Below, piece by piece: positions 4,183-24,041 of a DNA stretch of 24,041 nt (the first letter of the stretch is position 1; every line of letters begins with the position of its first letter). The notes beneath the pieces were generated by a model, which did no database searches, was not told where the DNA came from, and worked only from the letters and a program-made list of their open reading frames with translations. Source of the stretch: a virus. A program made the translations under genes and the position numbers. The DNA lies in IMG/VR virus record IMGVR_UViG_3300047359_000821, positions 1 to 24,041 of that record; one strand, written 5' to 3'.

Positions 4183-4202
4183 GGGGAGGCTTAGGCTTCC
4201 CC
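4183..4202. terminator. GC-rich hairpin between convergent phoH and sufE
   Basis: GGGGAGGC (4183-4190), loop TTAG, then GCTTCCCC (4195-4202) form an 8-bp stem with one G-T wobble, located 7 bases after the phoH stop. On the opposite strand the hairpin overlaps the sufE stop codon (4191-4193). The stem is unusually GC-rich for this AT-rich region and sits exactly where two convergent units meet, so a bidirectional terminator is likely. No long T-tract follows on either strand, so it may be inefficient or only shield mRNA ends. Confidence 0.6.
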
Positions 4203-4580
4203 GGTTTCCAAGACTTTCATTGTATTAATTAAGTTATTAACACCATTCTGTCTACCCATACTTAGCAACGGTGCTAAACCTATATCGGTAAGTGTGTTTA
4301 TACTGAACGACTGACGTTGTGTGTTAGTTGCTTGATTGTACCAATCACAAATCATACCTGCTAGTCCTTTTACAATAGCACTATCTGCTTGACATGTAAA
4401 TTGACTGTTAGAATACTTAACCCATAAAGAACTTGTACAACCTTTTATAAGATCGTTACTATTCCTTTCGAATTCTTGTACGCTAGATGCAGTAGTTCCG
4501 TATTCCATAATGAACTCGTACTTGTCCATTGCTTCCTCTAGTTCAAAGAGGTCTTCATACAAATTTTGAAATTCGAGCAT
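4191..4580 (-). CDS. sufE: SufE sulfur-acceptor protein
   Basis: A 129-residue SufE-family protein. The hallmark is IKGCTSSLWV (residues 46-55), with Cys48 as the expected persulfide-accepting cysteine; the family usually reads VxGCxSxVW at this place. The following segment (SQFTCQADSAIVKGLAGM) and the conserved C-terminal LGLAPLLS-type element (here IGLAPLLSMGR) also match. SufE takes persulfide sulfur from SufS, stimulates it, and passes sulfur to SufB. The start at 4580 has an AAGGAAG Shine-Dalgarno and overlaps sufS by 26 bases, so the two partners are translationally coupled. It is the last gene of the suf block and ends in a hairpin facing phoH. Length is close to the cellular family. 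Confidence 0.87.
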   Translation of the reverse strand: MLEFQNLYEDLFELEEAMDKYEFIMEYGTTASSVQEFERNSNDLIKGCTSSLWVKYSNSQFTCQADSAIVKGLAGMICDWYNQATNTQRQSFSINTLTDIGLAPLLSMGRQNGVNNLINTMKVLETGEA

Positions 4581-5718
4581 CGGCTTCCTTAATTGCTGTA
4601 AACGCTAGTTCTAATTCTTCTTTGGTAGTATAAGCACCCCAACTAACTCTTAATAGCCCTTTGTTGACGCTTATATTGCGTACTAGAGGCTCTGCACAGA
4701 GGTTCCCTCCACGTATCATAATATTTTTAGCATCAAGAAGCATTGTAAAATCTTCTATAGTACCGTGTTGTGGCACCATAGTTATAAGTCCTGTTTGGCT
4801 TGCGTAAGGATTGTTTTCGCACAAGTCATTAGCAACTACTGCTAGTGCTTTATCATGTGCAAGTATATCACTTTGATTTCTAATAAGCCAATTTAATAAG
4901 TTTGGCAAAGTGAATATTGCTTGTAAGTTTGGTGTACCGCTTTCAAATTTTTGTGCGTTAGTTAGATATGTTTCATGTAGATAACTTACTGCTGATACAC
5001 TGCCACCGCCTGGATGTACTGGTGCTTTTTCTAACCACTTAGGATCAATCATTAAACAACCAAGTCCTGATGGTCCGTATACTTTATGCCAACTCCATGC
5101 TACAAAATCAAAACCTTCGTAGTTATGATGTATTTTCCCCATGCTTTGACATGCGTCTACTATTGTAATTGCATTATATTGTCCTGCAATGAATCTTATT
5201 CGTTCTAAATCATTGATAGTACCGGTAACATTACCAACGGCAGTTACAGCAATTATCTTAACTTCAGACTGGTCTTCACGTAGAGTTGCTTCTAAATCAG
5301 ACAAATCTAACACACCAGACTCAGTTAGTTTTATATAATGACAATGATTGTAGCCTGTTGAGTGAAAGGGTAATGTAAGACTGTGATGAAAGTCACCGCC
5401 AACAAATACACTAAAGTCATCTTGTCTCCGTGTTGCTAATTGTATTGCGTCATACAATCCTTGTGTTGCACCACTGTTAAAAACAATTCTATCTTGTGGA
5501 TCAGTAATACCAAGCCACTCGCCTATTTTTTCTTTTGCTGTATGATACTTCTCGTCTATAAATGCACCCATGCTATGCCCACTACGGTGTGCATTTGCTT
5601 TATATGTTAGAAACGTTCCTGTGTCAGTAATTACAGTGTCAAGTGTTTGACTTGTAGCGGCACTGTCCAGATACGTTAGGTCAGGGTGTTCTTTAAAAAA
5701 CGGAAATCTATTTCTCAT
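4555..5718 (-). CDS. sufS: SufS-type (group II) cysteine desulfurase
   Basis: A 387-residue PLP enzyme that removes sulfur from cysteine, leaving alanine and an enzyme persulfide. Visible landmarks: YLDSAATSQ at the N-terminus (16-24), NAHRSGHSMG (42-51), FHHSLTLP where cellular SufS has EHHANxxP (110-117), VDACQS with the PLP-pyridine Asp188, PLP-binding Lys212 in SWHKVYGPSG, the SAVSYLHETYL and FESGTPN segments, catalytic Cys341 in RGGNLCAEPL, and RVSWGAYTTKEE near the end. Length is slightly below the usual ~405. Departures from consensus are the missing Glu before HH and VDAC for the usual VDGAQ-type motif. All core catalytic residues are present, so it should be active. Start at 5718 has AAGGAAAG upstream and overlaps sufD by 11 bases. 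Confidence 0.92.
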   Translation of the reverse strand: MRNRFPFFKEHPDLTYLDSAATSQTLDTVITDTGTFLTYKANAHRSGHSMGAFIDEKYHTAKEKIGEWLGITDPQDRIVFNSGATQGLYDAIQLATRRQDDFSVFVGGDFHHSLTLPFHSTGYNHCHYIKLTESGVLDLSDLEATLREDQSEVKIIAVTAVGNVTGTINDLERIRFIAGQYNAITIVDACQSMGKIHHNYEGFDFVAWSWHKVYGPSGLGCLMIDPKWLEKAPVHPGGGSVSAVSYLHETYLTNAQKFESGTPNLQAIFTLPNLLNWLIRNQSDILAHDKALAVVANDLCENNPYASQTGLITMVPQHGTIEDFTMLLDAKNIMIRGGNLCAEPLVRNISVNKGLLRVSWGAYTTKEELELAFTAIKEADARISKFV

Positions 5719-6163
5719 ACAAACTTTCCTTAAGAATATCTTTATAGTTTGTTATGCCTTTACTATGCAAATAGTATCTATCTTCTTGGCTAAGTGTACC
5801 AAGTGCATTACCATGTGCGGCTTTAATGTCGTTATTTAAAACAAACATTTCAGGTCGTGCCTGGATTCTGCTTTTATCAAAAGGCCAACTTCTAATTTGC
5901 ATATCAGTATCTACACCACTTGCGTCTTTAGCAACATAGCAACTAAGAATACAATCAACACTAGCATTGTTTTCAGCATATATTCTTACATTTATCTTAC
6001 TTAATGAATCTTTCTCAGGATGTACATTAATACTAACAGGACAATGTCCATGTTCTTGTATAACAGTAATATTATATTCTTCGTGATTTTCTACATCTTG
6101 CGGATGTAAATTTAACGATATACCGTTTTCGTTTGTGTATATTTTATTATAAGGTTTGGCCAT
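5708..6163 (-). CDS. sufD: Mini-SufD: truncated SufD-like scaffold subunit
   Basis: At 151 residues this is far shorter than cellular SufD (about 400). The C-terminal part carries the SufD signature: RPEMFVLNNDIKAAHGNALG (103-122), with His117 at the position of the conserved KxxHG histidine (His360 in E. coli SufD, from memory). LSQEDRYYLHSKGI (124-137) follows, matching the SufD DEEALFYLRSRGI region. The N-terminal ~80 residues alternate like short beta strands, fitting a shortened beta-helix core; the N-terminal helical region is absent. It lies between sufC and sufS with overlaps of 17 and 11 bases, so it is not a decaying fragment. It probably pairs with SufB and SufC. SufB is also related to SufD, but full-length SufB is encoded separately. 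Confidence 0.82.
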   Translation of the reverse strand: MAKPYNKIYTNENGISLNLHPQDVENHEEYNITVIQEHGHCPVSINVHPEKDSLSKINVRIYAENNASVDCILSCYVAKDASGVDTDMQIRSWPFDKSRIQARPEMFVLNNDIKAAHGNALGTLSQEDRYYLHSKGITNYKDILKESLYEK

Positions 6164-6803
6164 TTGACAACTCTATTTGTTTAGTTGGGTAACTATCTTG
6201 TAAAAGTTGATCGTGTGTTACCAGAAACACAATACCACCGTCATCACATACTGACTTAATTAAATCAGTAACTTGTGAACGACTAGACTGTTCTAATCCA
6301 CTGTCGGGCTCGTCTAACAATAGTACACGAGGCGTTTTTAATTTTGCCTGTGCTAGTTCATTCTTCTTACGTTCGCCACCACTTGCTCCGTGATTGAAAT
6401 CTCTTTGTGTCCAATCTTCAGGCAATGATAGTTCTTTAAATACACCTTTTGTTTGACGTATGATTTCAATCTTACGTGCATCAGGTGAATCAAACTTTGC
6501 AAATTCACTAAACAAAGACAATGTGTTTACACCGTCTAGTGTTGGCGGTGATTGATGTGCAATAAAGAATCCATTACGTGATCTTTCAAAGCATTCCATG
6601 TCTAGTACATCTTCACCGTTAAATTCAATTTCTCCATCAACATCAATATCTGGACGTCCCATAATAGTATGTAATAAGGTACTCTTACCACTTCCATTAT
6701 GCCCTGTAACTAGAATACATTCGCCAGCATTTGCTTCTAAGTCAATACCATCAAGTATTTCTTTTCCGTTAATGCTTGCTTTTAGGTTTTTAATTTTGAG
6801 CAT
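6147..6803 (-). CDS. sufC: SufC ATPase of the SufBCD Fe-S scaffold
   Basis: A 218-residue ABC-type ATPase with Walker A GHNGSGKST (34-42), Q-loop AHQSP (82-86), signature ASGGERKKNE (140-149), Walker B LLLDEPDSGLE (161-171) and H-loop His197 in VTHDQ. The SGGE(R/K)K(K/R)NE form of the signature and DSGL(D/E) after Walker B are typical of SufC rather than transporter ABC proteins. Cellular SufC is about 250 residues; here the protein stops about 20 residues after the H-loop, so the usual C-terminal tail is missing. Walker B reads DEP instead of the DE(S/T) common in SufC. It drives conformational change of SufB/SufD during cluster assembly. A GGAGG Shine-Dalgarno precedes the ATG; the gene overlaps grx by 14 bases and sufD by 17. 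Confidence 0.93.
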   Translation of the reverse strand: MLKIKNLKASINGKEILDGIDLEANAGECILVTGHNGSGKSTLLHTIMGRPDIDVDGEIEFNGEDVLDMECFERSRNGFFIAHQSPPTLDGVNTLSLFSEFAKFDSPDARKIEIIRQTKGVFKELSLPEDWTQRDFNHGASGGERKKNELAQAKLKTPRVLLLDEPDSGLEQSSRSQVTDLIKSVCDDGGIVFLVTHDQLLQDSYPTKQIELSNGQTL

Positions 6804-7098
6804 TCAATGCCTCCGCTAATGATTTATCATGGAACATATCTACCATGATATCGCTTCCACCTTGGAATTCTCCATCAATATAAAGTTGAGGAATTGTAGG
6901 CCATTCACTATATTCTTTAATATTTTCACGTAGTTCAGCATCTGCTAGTACGTTACGTGTTTCAAAGTCAGCACCTAATACTTCTAGTATTTTTACTGCC
7001 TTCATACTAAATCCACACGCCGGAGCGTCTTTAGTACCTTTCATAAACAAAACTACTTTGTGTTCGTTTACTAAATTGTCAATTTCTTGTTTTGTCAT
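6790..7098 (-). CDS. grxD: CGFS monothiol glutaredoxin (Grx4/GrxD type)
   Basis: A 102-residue monothiol glutaredoxin. The active site is CGFS (28-31) preceded by MKGTKDAPA, with WPTIPQLYI (67-75) and the GGSD glutathione-binding motif (81-84). Proteins of this class bind a glutathione-ligated 2Fe-2S cluster as dimers and deliver or store clusters rather than reduce disulfides. The gene is inserted between sufB (4-base ATGA overlap) and sufC (14-base overlap). No A-type carrier (SufA/IscA) gene is in the window, so this protein is the natural candidate for cluster carrier downstream of the phage Suf scaffold; that role is inferred. Length and motifs are fully intact. Confidence 0.95.
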
Positions 7099-8519
7099 CC
7101 TATACTCCCTTCCATTTGGACTTCTAATAATTTGTTTGCTTCAGCGGCAAACTCTAATGGTAATGTGTTAAGTACTGAATCACAGAAGCCGTTAACAATA
7201 GTACTAACTGCTTGTTCAGGATCTAATCCTCTACTCATTAAGTAGTATAACACTTCTTCACTTACTTTACCTGTGCTTGCTTCGTGTTCAATTTGTGCTG
7301 TTTCATTAGCAACATCAGTATACGGAATAGTATTACTAATACTATTACCACCAATCATTAAACTATCGCACTGTGTAAAGTTCTTTGCGTTGTCAGCACC
7401 AGCACCCATTTTAACTAAGCCACGGTATGTATTTTTACTGTAACCTAATCCAATGCCTTTTGAAACAATAGTGCTTTTGGTATTCTTACCAATGTGCCAC
7501 ATCTTTGTTCCTGTGTCTGCTTGTTGTCTACCTTTGGTTACTGCAACACTGTAGAACTCTCCTACACTGCCGTCACCTTTAAGTATACAACTTGGGTACT
7601 TCCAAGTAACTGCACTACCTGTTTCAACTTGTGTCCAAGTAACACGACTGTTGTTGCCTCTACACATTGCACGTTTAGTTACAAAATTGTATATACCGCC
7701 TTTGCCATTTTCATCGCCTGGGTACCAATTTTGTACTGTGCTGTATTTTATTTCAGCATTTTCTAAAGTAACAAGTTCTACTACTGCGGCATGTAATTGA
7801 TTTTCATCACGCATTGGTGCAGTACAACCTTCTAAGTAACTTACATAACTATCGTCGTCTGCAATAATAAGTGTGCGTTCAAACTGTCCTGTGTGTTCAG
7901 CATTGATTCTAAAGTATGTGCTTAGTTCCATTGGACACGTTGTGCCTTTTGGAATGTACACAAAACTACCATCTGAAAATACTGCACTGTTAAGACAACT
8001 AAAGTAATTGTCTTTTTGTGGAACAACACTGCCTAAATACTTTTTAACTAAGTCTGGATAGTCTTTTACTGCTTCACTAATACTACAAAATATTACACCG
8101 TCTTCTAAAAGTATATCTTTAAAAGTAGTTGTAACACTTACACTGTCGTATACTGCATCAACAGCAACACCTGCTAGTTTTGCTTGTTCGTCTAATGGAA
8201 TACCTAGTTTAGCAAAGTCTGCTAAAATTTCTGGATCTACTTCGTCCAAACTGTTTAGTAATTTTTTAGGACGACTGTGGTAATACAATTCATCATATTT
8301 AATTTTTGGATAATCTACTTCTGCCCAATTAGGTTCTTTCATAGTCTGTAAGGCTGTAAATGCTTTAAGTCGCCATTCTAATAACCACTCAGGCTCGTTG
8401 TTCTTATCGCTTATCAATCTAATTGTTTCTTCAGAAAGTCCCTTACCAAGGTATTCTGTCTCTACATTGGAAGACCAACCAGCAGTATACTCTTGTGAAA
8501 CTTCTTTTTCTTCAATCAT
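7095..8519 (-). CDS. sufB: SufB Fe-S cluster scaffold protein
   Basis: A 474-residue, near full-length SufB (cellular about 470-495). Recognisable blocks include [12 protein letters not shown] (123-134), [19 protein letters not shown] (188-206), [19 protein letters not shown] (230-248), the [12 protein letters not shown] segment (277-288), [11 protein letters not shown] (381-391) and [13 protein letters not shown] (410-422). Cys384 is 90 residues from the C-terminus, the same distance as the key Cys405 of E. coli SufB (from memory). Cys232 in EGCTAP is close to the place of Cys254. SufB receives sulfur from SufE and builds the nascent cluster with SufC and SufD. It is the first suf gene, overlapping the dCMP deaminase by 8 bases and grx by 4, so the block continues the nucleotide-metabolism operon without its own obvious promoter. 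Confidence 0.95.
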
Positions 8520-8919
8520 TATGTATCACCTTTACTTTAGATTTCTTTAAAAATTCTATACCTACGCTACTTCGATATGCATCTTTATAATATACAGTAC
8601 TTATACCGCTCTGGTATATTAACTTAGCACATTCGATACAAGGAGCATGAGTACACAGTAATGTGGCATTTTTACCACTTTCGTGTGAACTTGCTAACTT
8701 TGCAATAGCATTACTTTCTGCATGTAATACTTCAGGCTTAGATTTAAAGTGTTCATCTTCGCATGTATTATCCCATCCTGTGGGCATACCATTATAACCA
8801 ATACTAATAATGCGATCATCTTTAACAACAACAGCACCTACTTGTAAACGTTTGGCATGACTTAACTGTGCAAATCTTTCTGCTACGTCCATGTATGCAT
8901 CTATAAACTTCTGCTTCAT
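8512..8919 (-). CDS. dCMP deaminase
   Basis: A 135-residue zinc deaminase of the ComEB/T4 gpcd family. It has the zinc-site HAESNAI (66-72; His66, catalytic Glu68) and [11 protein letters not shown] (91-101; Cys94 and Cys97). The N-terminal [21 protein letters not shown]-type strand is also present, as is the additional CEDEH segment of dCMP deaminases. It converts dCMP to dUMP, feeding the ThyX encoded two genes upstream. It is a little shorter than T4 Cd. The ATG overlaps the preceding gene by ATGA and the 3' end overlaps sufB by 8 bases, tying pyrimidine metabolism to the suf block. Confidence 0.92.
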
Positions 8920-9805: not shown

Positions 9806-9989
9806 GTTTACTTAAATCCTCTCCATTGCGACCACGGTCTCTATTACCGTCGCCATTAAGCTCTGTTAAATCTTGTTGTTTTATTTTTTGATCTTTGTTG
9901 CCAAAGATTTTATCATAGTTGTCTCGATACTTTTCTGTAGGAGTCTTGCTTCTTAGTTCGTCCCCAGTTATATCGTTTCGTGTCGTCAT
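9798..9989 (-). CDS. Small charged phage protein, unknown function
   Basis: A 63-residue, strongly hydrophilic protein ([20 protein letters not shown] and a [10 protein letters not shown] core, then a Gly/Asn/Asp/Arg-rich tail). It has an AAGGAAATAAA Shine-Dalgarno, overlaps the ferredoxin stop by ATGA, and overlaps thyX by 8 bases, so it is a tightly coupled operon member. From memory, short proteins with a YxDNYDxIF core occur in marine T4-like phages. It is probably largely disordered; no function can be read. Confidence 0.68.
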
Positions 9990-10336
9990 TTTATTTCCTT
10001 AAGAGGTATAATACCAAACTCTTCATATTTGTTAGGATATCCATCCCATTTGTCGTGGTCGTCCAAAGGCGCAATTTGTTCAGCAAGTACCGGAGCACCT
10101 GAATCAACAACTTTACGGTTTATGTCATCCCACTTCTCTCGTTCTTCACTACGCAATTCAGTATCCTCAAAGATAGCACCAACTGGACATTCTGGAACAC
10201 AGACTCCACAGTCAATACATTCTTCAGGATTGATTGCGAGAAAGTTTTCTGCCTCATAGAAGCAGTCTACTGGACAGACTGCTACACAGTCTGTATGTTT
10301 GCATTTAATGCAGTTGTCTGTTACTAAGTATGTCAC
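9986..10336 (-). CDS. fdxA: 7Fe ferredoxin (FdxA type, 3Fe-4S plus 4Fe-4S), GTG start
   Basis: A 116-residue ferredoxin beginning with GTG, which overlaps the clamp-loader stop as TAGTG. Cysteines at 9, 12, 17, 21, 25, 40, 43, 46 and 50 follow the Azotobacter FdI/FdxA arrangement. Cys9, Cys17 and Cys50 fit a 3Fe-4S cluster, and Cys21, Cys40, Cys43 and Cys46 fit a 4Fe-4S cluster. The segments [20 protein letters not shown] and [16 protein letters not shown] are nearly textbook for proteobacterial FdxA. The C-terminal ~55 residues form the usual extra region seen in 7Fe ferredoxins. It carries electrons in the cytoplasm; its partner is unknown. It lies in the same operon as the suf block and is a clear Fe-S consumer, likely of host (alphaproteobacterial-like) origin. 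Confidence 0.94.
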
Positions 10337-14163: not shown

Positions 14164-14171
14164 TATTTATC
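14164..14171 (-). promoter_or_regulatory. T4-type late promoter box (GATAAATA) for 14136 and downstream genes
   Basis: Reads GATAAATA on the minus strand, 27 bases before the ATG at 14136, and overlaps the stop codon of the DnaE-like gene upstream (14167-14169). Confidence 0.7.
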
Positions 14172-14697
14172 TAAGGAACTCACGCCAATCCAGGTCATAT
14201 TGGATTGAGTTTATTTTGTGTACTCCTATTATGTACAGTACATATGATGCTACTGAACTACCTCTACCTACACCCCATACAATATCATTCTCACGCATAA
14301 AGTCTACAAGATATATCATATAGCGTAATAGATTGTGCATATCACGTTCGCCATATGCTTCCATTTCTTCCCATATACGATCTTGTACGTGTTGTGGGCA
14401 GGGTGTTTCTGCTTTGCCTAGTACATATTCATATACATTAATGTCTTTGTATTCATCAGGCATAAACCATTCACTTTGACATACACCGTCAAAAGTCTGT
14501 TGATCTACATCTAATGGAATATATTTTTGTAATTTGTTAAGGCCTTGTTCTTCCATTGCCTTATTAAATTGTTCCACGTCATCACTTGGATCGCACAGAA
14601 CTACATGCACTTTGTCTGCATGTCCTGTATAGATCATATCTACTAGATCCTTGTTAGAGAATCGTGGGATACCGAAAGAGTCTGTTTTCATAAGCAT
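14167..14697 (-). CDS. DnaE-like fragment protein (DNA polymerase III alpha homology without catalytic aspartates)
   Basis: A 176-residue protein. The C-terminal part (about 137-176) matches the bacterial replicative polymerase alpha-subunit region GxGRGSxxxSxVxYxLGIxxIxxxxYDLxxxRFL: here WGVGRGSSVASYVLYIIGVH, then YDLDWREFLR at the end. In DnaE the catalytic PDxDxD follows immediately; here the protein stops first. Residues 14-100 resemble the stretch just before it in DnaE only loosely. It is thus a truncated, probably non-catalytic polymerase-like module kept as a separate gene. T4-like phages replicate with a family B polymerase, so the role is unclear. Start is uncertain (ATG at 14697 or 14691; no clear Shine-Dalgarno). 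Confidence 0.72.
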   Translation of the reverse strand: MLMKTDSFGIPRFSNKDLVDMIYTGHADKVHVVLCDPSDDVEQFNKAMEEQGLNKLQKYIPLDVDQQTFDGVCQSEWFMPDEYKDINVYEYVLGKAETPCPQHVQDRIWEEMEAYGERDMHNLLRYMIYLVDFMRENDIVWGVGRGSSVASYVLYIIGVHKINSIQYDLDWREFLR

Positions 14698-19304: not shown

Positions 19305-19312
19305 TATTTATT
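19305..19312 (-). promoter_or_regulatory. T4-type late promoter box (AATAAATA) for 19285
   Basis: Reads AATAAATA on the minus strand, one base off the form seen elsewhere in the window, 19 bases before the ATG at 19285, and overlapping the stop of the fibre gene (19311-19313). Confidence 0.6.
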
Positions 19313-22300
19313 ACATACGTCCTACAACTACTTCAATGACACCTTTGCCATCGCTGTCTTTGCTTTCGACTGCTTTACCAATTACTGTACCTAGTTTAGG
19401 ATCATTATCAACCATTGCATAACCTGGTATTGCACTTGTTACAAGCATGTCACCTTTTTCAACAGTGCCAATAACTTTACAAGGTACACGCCCTGTTAGT
19501 GCCAGTTCAACAACTGTATCACCTTTTAGTGCATTGTTCATTAAGTATGCAGGATCTGTTGAAACAACACCTGCAACCTTACGATCACCTTTTGCTGTAC
19601 AAATTGTAACTTCATTGTCGCCACCAAATACTAATACTGTACCTGGCTCGTATGCTTGATCACCTACATATTTCTCAGCCAAGTCAGCAAAGTTAGCTGA
19701 ACTTGCTGTACCACTAAAGTTAGTTGCTGTTAGTGTTGAATCACTAGGTCTGTATTTTAAACCATTTCCACCATCTTTATCAATGCTTAGTGATTGTGAT
19801 GCACCGTTTGAATCTGTAAATGTAATAAAATAGTCACTAGCACTAGAGTTAGTATTAGAAACTGCTATATTTGCACTTGCACCATTTGATACTGCATTAG
19901 CAACATCAGTTGTAGTTGCATAGTTATTATTACTAAGATATGTTGATACTCTAGTGTCTGTGTAGTATAAGTTAGTACCTTCTGATAAGTCAGCAGTATC
20001 ATGGTTTGATAAACTAGATACTTGACCAGTAACGTCTCCAGTAAATGTAGCATCGTCTCCATCAGTTCCTGCTTCAAGTATTTTACTTGTTCCGTCACTT
20101 GCGTAAATGTCTGCTGTTAATAATCCAATACTACTTAAATTGCTACTACCAATGTTAATTGTATCTGCGCCAAGTTGACCGTTTAATGTTAAGTTACCGT
20201 TACTTGGATTCAGTTTAAAGTTAGCAGTAGTAAATGCCGCATGTCCTGTTCTAGATGTATGAGCTGGGTTACTTGTTACCCATAGTGGATAAACATCTGC
20301 ATCTGTTGCAGTACCATCTTCCTGCGATGATTGAAGTGTGTCTGCAACACCTGCAGTATCAACACCACCTGTTAATGGACCATTAAACTTACCATAGAAC
20401 ACACTAGCGTTAGCATCTGAGCCAGCTAGTACTGTACCTACATCAACAATTACGTTACCACTACTGTCTTTAATATCACCGTGATGTGTACCATAGTTAT
20501 CAGTAACATATGCTTTACTCCAAGGAGTACCACTTGTACCAAGAGTCTCTGTATTATTTGCTACTATGTTAGCACTAGATGTTATTGTATCACTAATTAC
20601 AAGTCTATTAGCAGTTGTACTTACGCCACTTGCTGTAGCAAACACAATATTACTTCTCTCGCCGGAGTTAGTTACTTCAGTAGCATTTGCAGTAATAGTT
20701 GATTTTATTTGATCTAGTGTAGTTGATACTGCACCATTACTTTGGAAAGTAATAACACCTAAGTCATCACCACCAGCAACATTGTCAGTTGTTTTTTGGA
20801 ATTTTAAATTAAATCCTGCCGCACCGTTATCATCAAGTCTAAGTTCTAATACTTCGTCAGTGATAATAGCGTTTGTTGTAATAGTATCTGTAACTGCATT
20901 TCCTAATTCAATGTTACCATTAAACGCAACATTACCAGTAACAGTTAAGTCATTATCAATTAGAACATTGTTACTAAATTGAGCATTACCATCATTTTCC
21001 ATATCGAAAGTTAATGCGTCAAACATAGTACCGGCATCGTTGCCACGTATACTTAATATTTTATCTTGTTCTAGATAATCTAGATTTAAACCATTTGCAG
21101 TATTAGCAAACTTAAATATGTCAGCTGTTGCATCTTTAATTACAACGTCACCACCATTTGCATTAAGTTCAATGTCAAGCTCTGCATCTAATACAATGTT
21201 ACCTGTTGCTTCAACAGTAAAGGCTTTTTCTGTTCCGTTAACATCAATAGTAAACGCACCCTGTGTTGTAAGCTCTTGAGCATCTTCAGTAGTAGCAAAG
21301 TTTAATCTTTCATCAGTACCGTCTTTGAATATAACATTCTCGCCAGCTGGGTTAAGTATAATGTCACCACCTGTACCAGGAGCAACTGTAACAGTTTCAA
21401 TTTCAAAGTCACCGTTAGTTCTACTAATTTTATTACCATCAAACACACTGTCGTCAACTGTAATGCCAGCGTTTGCTGTAACAGCTTCACTAACACCCAA
21501 CGTACCAACAATACTAGTATTACCTGTATTACCTGCTACACTAAATTTAACATCTGTGCCATCAACAATATTAAATGAGTTATATACGCTAGTTGAACCG
21601 TTTAAAATTTTAACACGAGTTACTTCGTTAGTACCTAGTAAAATTTCTGTTTCTTTTACTTTAAATGCATCAGTATAACCAGCAACTACTAAACCAATCT
21701 CTTTTAGACCAGTGTGTCTACCACCAGCGCCAATTGATATACCAGTACCTTCACTTGTAAGTTCACCTGGTGCTTGAATGTAGTTTGTGTAAACCCAAGG
21801 TGTAACTAAGTATGGTTCACTATTTGATTGAGTAGGACCTTCAGTGTTCTGTTGGAAGTTACCTGCAAATCCACCATAGTTAATAGGATCTTTAAGAATA
21901 GTTGTTGAACCAATTTGTACTGAAGCATTTGGTATGCTAACTGTACTCTTATCTGAAAGTGGTGTATTAGCTGATGGTGCAGTACCTTCAATTTGTATAC
22001 TTAAATGATCGTTTGGAGTGTATATAGAAAGTGTGTCACTTTGTGTATCTAGTACTCTGCGACTATCTACTAATAAACCTCTAGGGTTAATCCAACCACC
22101 TAAGTTAAGTGTATTATCTACACCTGAAATTGTGTCACCGTTTTTAAGTGTTCTAACTATACTATCGTCTGAACCTGTTTTACTAATTATACTAGATCCA
22201 TAAACTCCGTCACGTATTTTAACAAGTGCTGAGCCTAGTAAATTCTGTGAAGTAATAACTGATGTTGGAACACTTTGTGTACCTAATGCACTACCACTTA

Positions 22301-24041
22301 CAATTTGTAGTTGTCCTGTAGTATTAAATGTTCCTGCTGTATCTACAAGCACCAATTCGTTTTCAGTATTTACTGCACCTTGTATAGTACCTGTAGCACC
22401 TGTGTTACCTACCTGTGTAATATTAGTACCGTCTGGTAAAGTAAGTTCTCCAGTAGTAACAATAATTGTACCTGAAACTTTTGTTAGTACACTATCGTTA
22501 AAGTCTTTATCTTGTAGACCTCCACCTTCATCAACTACTAAACTAAATGGTATAGCTCTAGCAATACCACTTTCGCCTGCACCTTCTTGTTCACCATCAA
22601 AGTCAATATCAGCACGACCAATAAGTGTTTTCTCTGGTAAGTCTTGTATCTTATCAAAAGTAATACCACGGTCTTTAACATTTATAAAGCCTGTATTTAA
22701 TATTGTATTAATAGTTGTATTACTTTGTGCATCAGCATCTTGTGTATAGTCACTTTGGTTAATAGATATTCTTGTAAGTCTATTTGCACCAGCATTACCA
22801 ATAGTAAATGCTGTTGATACTCTAACTTTAATTTGGTTAACGCCTGTGTCAGTAGCAACTACGTATGCTTCTTTTGCACCAGCAGTTTGTGTAATAACAT
22901 CATTGACTGCTAGTGATGCAATAAACGCTGTAACGTCAGCACCTTGTAGTGTCCAAATTTGATCTTCAGCAAACACATCTGCATTAAATGCCGCTAAACC
23001 TTGATTGGCTTGTTTTGTACGTTGTCCTGCTGTACTTGCATCTTCAAAGTTATTACTGTTAGTAAGTACAGGAGCATTATTCATATCAAGTTTTGATTGT
23101 ATAATATCTGCTTCGTTGTTTACATCAGCATTAATAATACTTTGTGCTTGTAGTTGTAGGTTAACTTTAGTTGAACCTGGGTCTAATAATTGACCATTGC
23201 TATCCATTGTACCACGTATACGCTCGACTGCAATGTTAACATCACTTCTTGTTGTACTTCCTGGTACGCCATCACCTGACAGATTTGATTCACTTGCGTT
23301 TGCAAATTCTAATGTAGTTGTTACAACTGCACCATCAAAGCCGCCTGTTGTATTACCATATGCACCATCTGTATTCTCTATCTTTTCATTACTAAAGTCT
23401 GATACAGTTGGTATTGTTATTGATAATGGGTAAACTGTTGTTGAAACTGCTGTACCAAACAAGTCTGTAATTGTTAATACGTTTGCACTATTACCAGCAA
23501 CAAATGTACCAGTTGTGTTAATTAAACGTATTTCATTACCTTGTGTTACTTGTCTATTTTCATTTGTTGTACTTTGATCTTGTTCCCAAAGTATTTCACC
23601 TGTAGCACCTGTGCCAGACTGTGTAACAGTAAATCCTCTTTGTGCTGTTAAGTTATTGTTAGCACCACTAGTTTGAATACTTGTAATTTGTAATGGTGAG
23701 TATGTTAGTACATATATTTCTTCACCGTTATCAAGTGTCTTGGCTTCTAGGTCTTCAATGTATGCCGCTGTTTCAGAAGCAACACCAGTAATTAATTGTC
23801 CAATTCTCCAATCATCTGGGTTACCAATTGTTTGTTTAACATAGACTCTTCTGTTACCTGTAAGTACTAATAAATCGTTTTTACCATAATCATCTTCAAA
23901 ACTAATATCATTTAGTTCAATGTCTTTAAGTTCTTGAACTTCGTCATTAGCAAAAACACGCTTATCAACATATTGTTTTGTAGTTGCATCTAAGTCATCA
24001 GTTGGATCTGCTAACTGTACAAGTCTACCTGACTGCATGTT
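19311..24041 (-). CDS. Long tail-fibre protein, 5' end outside the window
   Basis: At least 1575 residues. The frame is still open at the right edge and an Asn codon precedes the first ATG at 24038, so the true start is probably outside. The visible N-terminus (RLVQLADPTDDLDATTKQYV) is the common fibre motif. It is followed by long Gly/Asn/Thr/Ala-rich beta repeats. The late shaft has TGDVTGQVSSL and LSEGTNLYYTDTRV, a motif of many phage fibres. The C-terminal ~120 residues form a distinct domain (YEPGTVLVFGGDNEVT, VAGVVSTDPAYLMNN, ALTGRVPCKVIGTV, GDMLVTSAIPGYA, IEVVVGRM), which from memory caps many marine phage fibres. It most likely mediates host recognition. No S74-type self-cleaving chaperone motif was noticed. 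Confidence 0.85.
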   Translation of the reverse strand, partial: NMQSGRLVQLADPTDDLDATTKQYVDKRVFANDEVQELKDIELNDISFEDDYGKNDLLVLTGNRRVYVKQTIGNPDDWRIGQLITGVASETAAYIEDLEAKTLDNGEEIYVLTYSPLQITSIQTSGANNNLTAQRGFTVTQSGTGATGEILWEQDQSTTNENRQVTQGNEIRLINTTGTFVAGNSANVLTITDLFGTAVSTTVYPLSITIPTVSDFSNEKIENTDGAYGNTTGGFDGAVVTTTLEFANASESNLSGDGVPGSTTRSDVNIAVERIRGTMDSNGQLLDPGSTKVNLQLQAQSIINADVNNEADIIQSKLDMNNAPVLTNSNNFEDASTAGQRTKQANQGLAAFNADVFAEDQIWTLQGADVTAFIASLAVNDVITQTAGAKEAYVVATDTGVNQIKVRVSTAFTIGNAGANRLTRISINQSDYTQDADAQSNTTINTILNTGFINVKDRGITFDKIQDLPEKTLIGRADIDFDGEQEGAGESGIARAIPFSLVVDEGGGLQDKDFNDSVLTKVSGTIIVTTGELTLPDGTNITQVGNTGATGTIQGAVNTENELVLVDTAGTFNTTGQLQIVSGSALGTQSVPTSVITSQNLLGSALVKIRDGVYGSSIISKTGSDDSIVRTLKNGDTISGVDNTLNLGGWINPRGLLVDSRRVLDTQSDTLSIYTPNDHLSIQIEGTAPSANTPLSDKSTVSIPNASVQIGSTTILKDPINYGGFAGNFQQNTEGPTQSNSEPYLVTPWVYTNYIQAPGELTSEGTGISIGAGGRHTGLKEIGLVVAGYTDAFKVKETEILLGTNEVTRVKILNGSTSVYNSFNIVDGTDVKFSVAGNTGNTSIVGTLGVSEAVTANAGITVDDSVFDGNKISRTNGDFEIETVTVAPGTGGDIILNPAGENVIFKDGTDERLNFATTEDAQELTTQGAFTIDVNGTEKAFTVEATGNIVLDAELDIELNANGGDVVIKDATADIFKFANTANGLNLDYLEQDKILSIRGNDAGTMFDALTFDMENDGNAQFSNNVLIDNDLTVTGNVAFNGNIELGNAVTDTITTNAIITDEVLELRLDDNGAAGFNLKFQKTTDNVAGGDDLGVITFQSNGAVSTTLDQIKSTITANATEVTNSGERSNIVFATASGVSTTANRLVISDTITSSANIVANNTETLGTSGTPWSKAYVTDNYGTHHGDIKDSSGNVIVDVGTVLAGSDANASVFYGKFNGPLTGGVDTAGVADTLQSSQEDGTATDADVYPLWVTSNPAHTSRTGHAAFTTANFKLNPSNGNLTLNGQLGADTINIGSSNLSSIGLLTADIYASDGTSKILEAGTDGDDATFTGDVTGQVSSLSNHDTADLSEGTNLYYTDTRVSTYLSNNNYATTTDVANAVSNGASANIAVSNTNSSASDYFITFTDSNGASQSLSIDKDGGNGLKYRPSDSTLTATNFSGTASSANFADLAEKYVGDQAYEPGTVLVFGGDNEVTICTAKGDRKVAGVVSTDPAYLMNNALKGDTVVELALTGRVPCKVIGTVEKGDMLVTSAIPGYAMVDNDPKLGTVIGKAVESKDSDGKGVIEVVVGRM

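Follow-up and report, generated by a model that had tools for sequence, protein, structure and literature searches.

The window analysed here is an entire IMG/VR virus record of 24,041 bases. Between positions 4191 and 8519, its minus strand carries six open reading frames (ORFs), neighbours overlapping by 4-26 bases, that encode SufB, a CGFS glutaredoxin, SufC, a SufD-like protein, SufS, and SufE (Table 1). This overlapping block had been described in an earlier note made from the sequence alone, and we confirmed its gene content and limits. All six ORFs score above the Pfam gathering thresholds. The curated cut-offs of NCBIfam are stricter, and only SufB and the Grx4-type glutaredoxin reach them. 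SufC, SufD, SufS, and SufE are recognised by NCBIfam models with scores below the cut-offs (in the case of SufS and SufE, equivalog/subfamily cut-offs), and we thus regard these four as divergent members of their families.

Table 1. Features of the window, with the matches that identify them.
Feature	Position	Strand	Length	Evidence or remark
SufB	7095..8519	-	474 aa	Full length; NCBIfam SufB 822 bits (cut-off 717); PDB 5awf_A, E=4e-187
Monothiol CGFS (Grx4-type) glutaredoxin	6790..7098	-	102 aa	TIGR00365 134.8 bits (cut-off 117.1); CGFS at residue 28
SufC ABC ATPase	6147..6803	-	218 aa	TIGR01978 163 bits (under the 212.8 cut-off); PDB SufC, E=6e-31
Mini-SufD	5708..6163	-	151 aa	SUFBD_core positions 129-221 only; alignment; predicted fold
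SufS cysteine desulfurase	4555..5718	-	387 aa	Aminotran_5 226.7 bits; SufS family 215 bits (below cut-off); PDB SufS, E=8e-39
SufE sulfur-transfer protein	4191..4580	-	129 aa	PF02657 83.6 bits; PDB SufE, E=1e-7
FdxA-type ferredoxin	9986..10336	-	116 aa	NCBIfam FdxA 137.1 bits (cut-off 135)
Fragment of DNA polymerase III alpha NTPase domain	14167..14697	-	176 aa	Stand-alone gene; near the SUF block in relatives too
Truncated end of giant tail-type gene	19311..24041	-		Intact relative (L143) has 4085 aa

Gene content of the block and its surroundings

The block resembles the bacterial SUF system (E. coli sufABCDSE, SufBC2D, PDB 5AWF and 2ZU0) in having SufB, SufC, SufS, SufE, the residues of the cluster site, and the order B-C-D-S-E. 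It differs from the E. coli system in being borne by a phage, in the presence of a CGFS glutaredoxin gene between sufB and sufC, in the lack of sufA within the block, and in the reduction of both SufD and SufC described below. The ferredoxin gene lies upstream of the block on the shared strand. FdxA is also present in relatives carrying SUF genes, such as the contig G033, and its product is probably a client for Fe-S clusters and a donor of electrons.

The earlier note saw in these genes a complete set from sulfur mobilisation to carrier. The six genes, including the glutaredoxin, bear out most of this description, but the window contains neither a SufA/A-type carrier nor SufT. A near-identical contig of 40 kb (G001) encodes an A-type carrier at 8586-8891, past the right end of the window; no SufT-like gene was found in its 40 kb. 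In G033, the genes next after the block are a SufT-like gene (PF01883), a gene of unassigned function, and an A-type carrier (PF01521), and a second A-type carrier and FdxA are found some 20 kb away. Most SUF phages have a SufT-like gene after SufS or SufE. In the phages with a short SufD, a gene of ~121 aa lacking any Pfam match lies between the SufT-like and the A-type carrier genes (L132:6501-6866, with homologues in L006, L007, L008, L042, L043, and L048) and is a candidate for a new Fe-S factor. Other phage contigs (L016, L018, L021, L025, L027, L030, L036, and L037) have sufB-C-D-S followed directly by the SufT-like gene, and no SufE was found in them using the SufE of the window as query.

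Single Fe-S genes were already known in marine viruses, as the earlier note stated. The published reports concern carriers or single steps in marine phages, T4-like ones among them, and not an operon leading from sulfur to scaffold. PMC5332604 describes single A-type carrier and iscU genes, and also a T4-like genome in which an A-type carrier and paaD accompany 12 radical-SAM genes; in the virome of an oxygen-minimum zone, sufE occurs unaccompanied by sufS (PMC8940887).

Distribution and phylogeny of the phage SUF genes

Three more contigs are 99.9% identical to the window over 18.4-18.5 kb, and the side of the block between dCMP deaminase and SufB is also covered by a fourth contig, at 91-94% identity. 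In diverged contigs, in which SufB is ~75% identical, the order B-(Grx)-C-miniD-S-E is repeated and followed by the small DNA polymerase fragment, a clamp loader, and PhoH. The identical order B-Grx-C-miniD-S-E occurs in G033, a contig of 235.6 kb that encodes the Gp23 capsid protein, as do the SUF contigs G015, G022, and G027; no capsid gene is present in the 24-40 kb contigs of the window's own lineage. The label 'T4-like' given earlier to the window is consistent with the Gp23 of these relatives. However, the window's clamp loader has its nearest isolate counterpart (55.6% identity) in jumbo Pseudomonas phages of the PA5oct/Paride type, in which, unlike in the window, we found no SufB.

The best bacterial SufBs are ~69% identical to that of the window. 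The tree that we built with most care separates the core phage SufBs from bacteria as a single clade (bootstrap 100, SH-aLRT 99), within which the phages with the short SufD are also grouped with high support (100/98). The bacterial sample was picked by similarity to the SufB of the window, which makes this tree fairest for the window lineage. The phage grouping also holds in larger, quickly built trees of SufB, SufC, and SufS, which contain some long branches. Where it could be measured, dN/dS among relatives ranges from 0.03 to 0.18 over the six genes.

These results bear on whether the block could come from bacterial contamination or a chimeric assembly, or be what is left of a decaying system whose sufD is broken. 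The earlier note had named breaks in read coverage near the ends of the block and recent single-genome contamination in the trees as signs of such an origin, and the recurrence of the gene order on further phage contigs as something to look for. Both junctions recur in other contigs, the trees reveal no recent single-genome bacterial source, and the order is found in diverged phages. Bacterial-looking suf genes do occur in records labelled as phages, MaAM05 being an example, so that the concern is legitimate in general. Yet the near-identical contigs and the 91-94% relative, the PhoH gene after the block in diverged phages, the distance to the best bacterial SufBs, the phage-only SufB clade, and the low dN/dS of the short SufD all speak against it here, and we regard such an origin as extremely improbable. 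Judged from sequences, the SUF block is inherited within a phage lineage, in a broad clade, and is not contamination.

The matches to SufB in the phage database consist of MaAM05 and of fragmentary or host-like records, and none of these records matched the short SufD. In Microcystis phage MaAM05 (MW495066, L041), sufBCDS-iscU is surrounded by genes of cellular type such as panB/panC, and the phage clade does not include its SufB; this record looks at least partly bacterial. The SufB of L033 (G027) and the SufS of L012/L017 (G010/G015) nest among SAR11 sequences, and this position in the trees suggests that these phages acquired the genes separately, from hosts resembling SAR11.

Conserved sites and a miniature SufD

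We compared the residues of the phage proteins with those of the E. coli proteins (L144). All ten SufB residues tested are kept in the window and in every aligned phage copy, including C254, C405, and E434 (Cys232, Cys384, and Glu413 in the window). The same holds for the Walker, Q-loop, and His residues of SufC (K40, Q85, K152, E171, D173, and H203), for H123, K226, C364, and others in SufS, and for C51 of SufE. The residues singled out earlier were thus correctly read: Lys212 and Cys341 of SufS correspond to K226 and C364, Cys48 is the SufE cysteine, and the SufB cysteines, the ABC motifs of SufC, and the CGFS motif are in place. The C-terminal tail of SufC is ~30 aa shorter than in E. coli, both in the window and in the relatives with the short SufD, and the only cysteines of the window SufC are at 29, 71, and 186.

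The largest departure from E. coli concerns SufD, which has 423 aa in that bacterium; the window protein cannot be much longer than annotated, its stop-to-stop frame having 154 aa. Described earlier as 'SufD-like', it is indeed a member of the SufD family that keeps H360, as His117, but it has only about a third of the usual length, and this conserved miniature form (hereafter mini-SufD) had been overlooked. The position of C358 is occupied by Ala115. H360 was judged essential in E. coli (PMC5571166), and it is invariant across all the SufDs that we aligned. The match covers only positions 129-221 of the 232 in the Pfam SUFBD core, and the protein is devoid of the N-terminal domain, of part of the beta-helix, and of the last helix of the C-terminal domain, which binds SufC in SufD. 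It therefore lacks the full-length, three-domain architecture of SufD by which a SUF system is recognised.

A short SufD of 143-154 aa, ~46-52% identical to the window copy, is present in all relatives of the sub-clade that cover the gene, with dN/dS of 0.03-0.11 between relatives where measurable. On account of this conserved length and low dN/dS, we rejected the idea that mini-SufD is a pseudogene or a broken sufD. We also considered that the missing portion might be encoded elsewhere, and rejected this because no additional SUFBD_core match exists in the 235 kb of G033. An AlphaFold2 model built from a 16-sequence alignment has nine strands and two helices (pLDDT 87.4, pTM 0.81); a model from four sequences only was weaker (pLDDT 72). 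When we searched the PDB with Foldseek, the fourteen best matches were all chains of SufB/SufD type, with E-values of 0.004 or weaker and a top query TM-score of 0.70 to E. coli SufD (2zu0_A). As modelled, mini-SufD thus has the SufD fold, reduced to half a beta-helix and two helices.

The SufD frames of other phages have 195-201, 287, or about 394-435 aa, and this series of lengths suggests that SufD was trimmed stepwise in phages. There may have been more than one episode of trimming, since the SufB of L033 groups with SAR11 (100/98) while its SufD has only 192 aa. Bacterial SufD lengths were compared in Pseudomonadota, among the best-scoring matches listed, and shorter bacterial SufDs may exist beyond those. 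Two Pelagibacteraceae genomes (G052 and G053) have SufD frames of only 312-315 aa, and shrinkage may also occur in SAR11.

Assembly, clients, and significance

We think it probable that the block is a working SUF system, inherited by the phage, whose main task during infection is to mature Fe-S proteins encoded by the phage itself. Here we infer the expression of the genes, the formation of a complex, its assembly of clusters, and the identity of the clients. Its mechanism can be sketched by analogy with the E. coli model (PMC5571166). SufS would take sulfur from cysteine and pass it through SufE to Cys232 of SufB, whence it would travel through the beta-helix to Cys384. The cluster would be built, driven by SufC, at the interface between SufB and mini-SufD, with Cys384 and Glu413 of the former and His117 of the latter as ligands. 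Since C358 is gone, Glu411 or His412 of SufB would have to serve as the fourth, redundant ligand. Together with the A-type carrier whose gene lies just beyond the window, the CGFS glutaredoxin would then hand the cluster on, to ferredoxin in the window lineage and to many radical-SAM enzymes in its relatives. The loss of the C-terminal helix of SufD and of the SufC tail may change the docking of SufC. Because mini-SufD misses most of SufD and SufC is trimmed, the proteins may fail to form a SufBC2D complex of the normal kind.

This raises the question of whether the scaffold consists of SufB and SufC alone, or of these with the host's full-length SufD, mini-SufD being an accessory, a chaperone, or a competitor. 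The absence of both terminal domains from mini-SufD fits such a scheme, and archaea do have SufD-less systems of the SmsB/SmsC type (PMC12584684). These minimal SMS or SufB2C2 systems (PMC12584684, PMC12192291) are likewise reduced scaffolds around SufB and SufC. However, the phage retains a SufD remnant with the invariant H360, keeps C405 and E434 in SufB, has SufS and SufE, and its SufC lacks the set of three C-terminal cysteines (C218/C237/C240) that holds the cluster in methanogen SufC/SmsC (PMC12584684). The presence of mini-SufD and the positions of the SufC cysteines rule out a system of the SMS type proper, and we find a scaffold independent of mini-SufD quite unlikely.

The genes for sulfur mobilisation could also have another purpose. 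Cysteine desulfurases serve several pathways (PMC8300815), and SufS and SufE might supply sulfur to tRNA thiolation or another sulfur modification, SufBCD being secondary. But they lie in a single overlapping block with a complete scaffold and an Fe-S glutaredoxin, to which relatives add A-type carrier and SufT-like genes, and this role is very unlikely.

Within our preferred explanation, a working system that matures the phage's own proteins, the clients are best seen in the larger relatives. The four SUF contigs bearing Gp23 (236-340 kb) have 17, 23, 11, and 22 radical-SAM matches, against 0, 1, 0, 0, 0, 5, 0, 1, and 1 in nine reference T4-like genomes without SUF (147-252 kb; one-sided Mann-Whitney p=0.003, in a test that ignores phylogeny). 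The contrast is weaker with SUF-less IMG/VR relatives, where one has 8 matches over 192 kb and another 10 over 78 kb, and these fragments may have SUF elsewhere. Radical-SAM enzymes are thus likely clients of SUF in the large relatives. In the window lineage, the ferredoxin is the sole client identified, with no radical-SAM match within the 40 kb known, and radical-SAM clients of the window itself are inferred from those of its relatives. The load of such enzymes suggests a more specific motive for a SUF operon than a generally raised Fe-S demand. In G033 (the record of locus L044), roughly twelve radical-SAM genes are clustered in an island at ~146-166 kb (L136, L137), next to genes that seem to act in glycan or surface modification. 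One of the radical-SAM genes encodes a fusion protein of 850 aa, which combines two stretches of radical-SAM sequence with SPASM. A B12-binding radical-SAM lies at 22-25 kb.

The same counts can be weighed against a function in which SUF mainly supports the Fe-S metabolism of the host, under oxidative stress or host gene shut-off, as classic auxiliary metabolic genes do, phage clients being incidental. Single viral Fe-S genes have been interpreted in this way (PMC8940887), and the lack of radical-SAM matches in the window lineage accords with it. As numerous Fe-S clients are found among the genes of the large SUF phages, we consider host support unlikely to be the main function, although the two are not exclusive. 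More tentatively, and at somewhat less than even chances, we propose that these phages have a SUF lineage of their own, in which SufD has been reduced to an exceptionally small cap that sits on the beta-helix of SufB and carries the histidine, and which is dedicated to loading the virus's radical-SAM enzymes, making its cofactor supply partly independent of the host.

In the full-text literature searched, which excluded preprints and most subscription journals, we found neither a complete SUF operon of a virus nor a miniature SufD described. Beyond the single Fe-S genes previously described, the inheritance of an entire assembly line means that a phage may produce an essential cofactor itself, and the radical-SAM load suggests a reason for the operon that can be put to the test. 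Mini-SufD is a natural deletion experiment on the role of SufD, retaining the sole residue found essential by mutagenesis (PMC5571166) and discarding most of the rest, and it could also serve as a compact part for making Fe-S enzymes.
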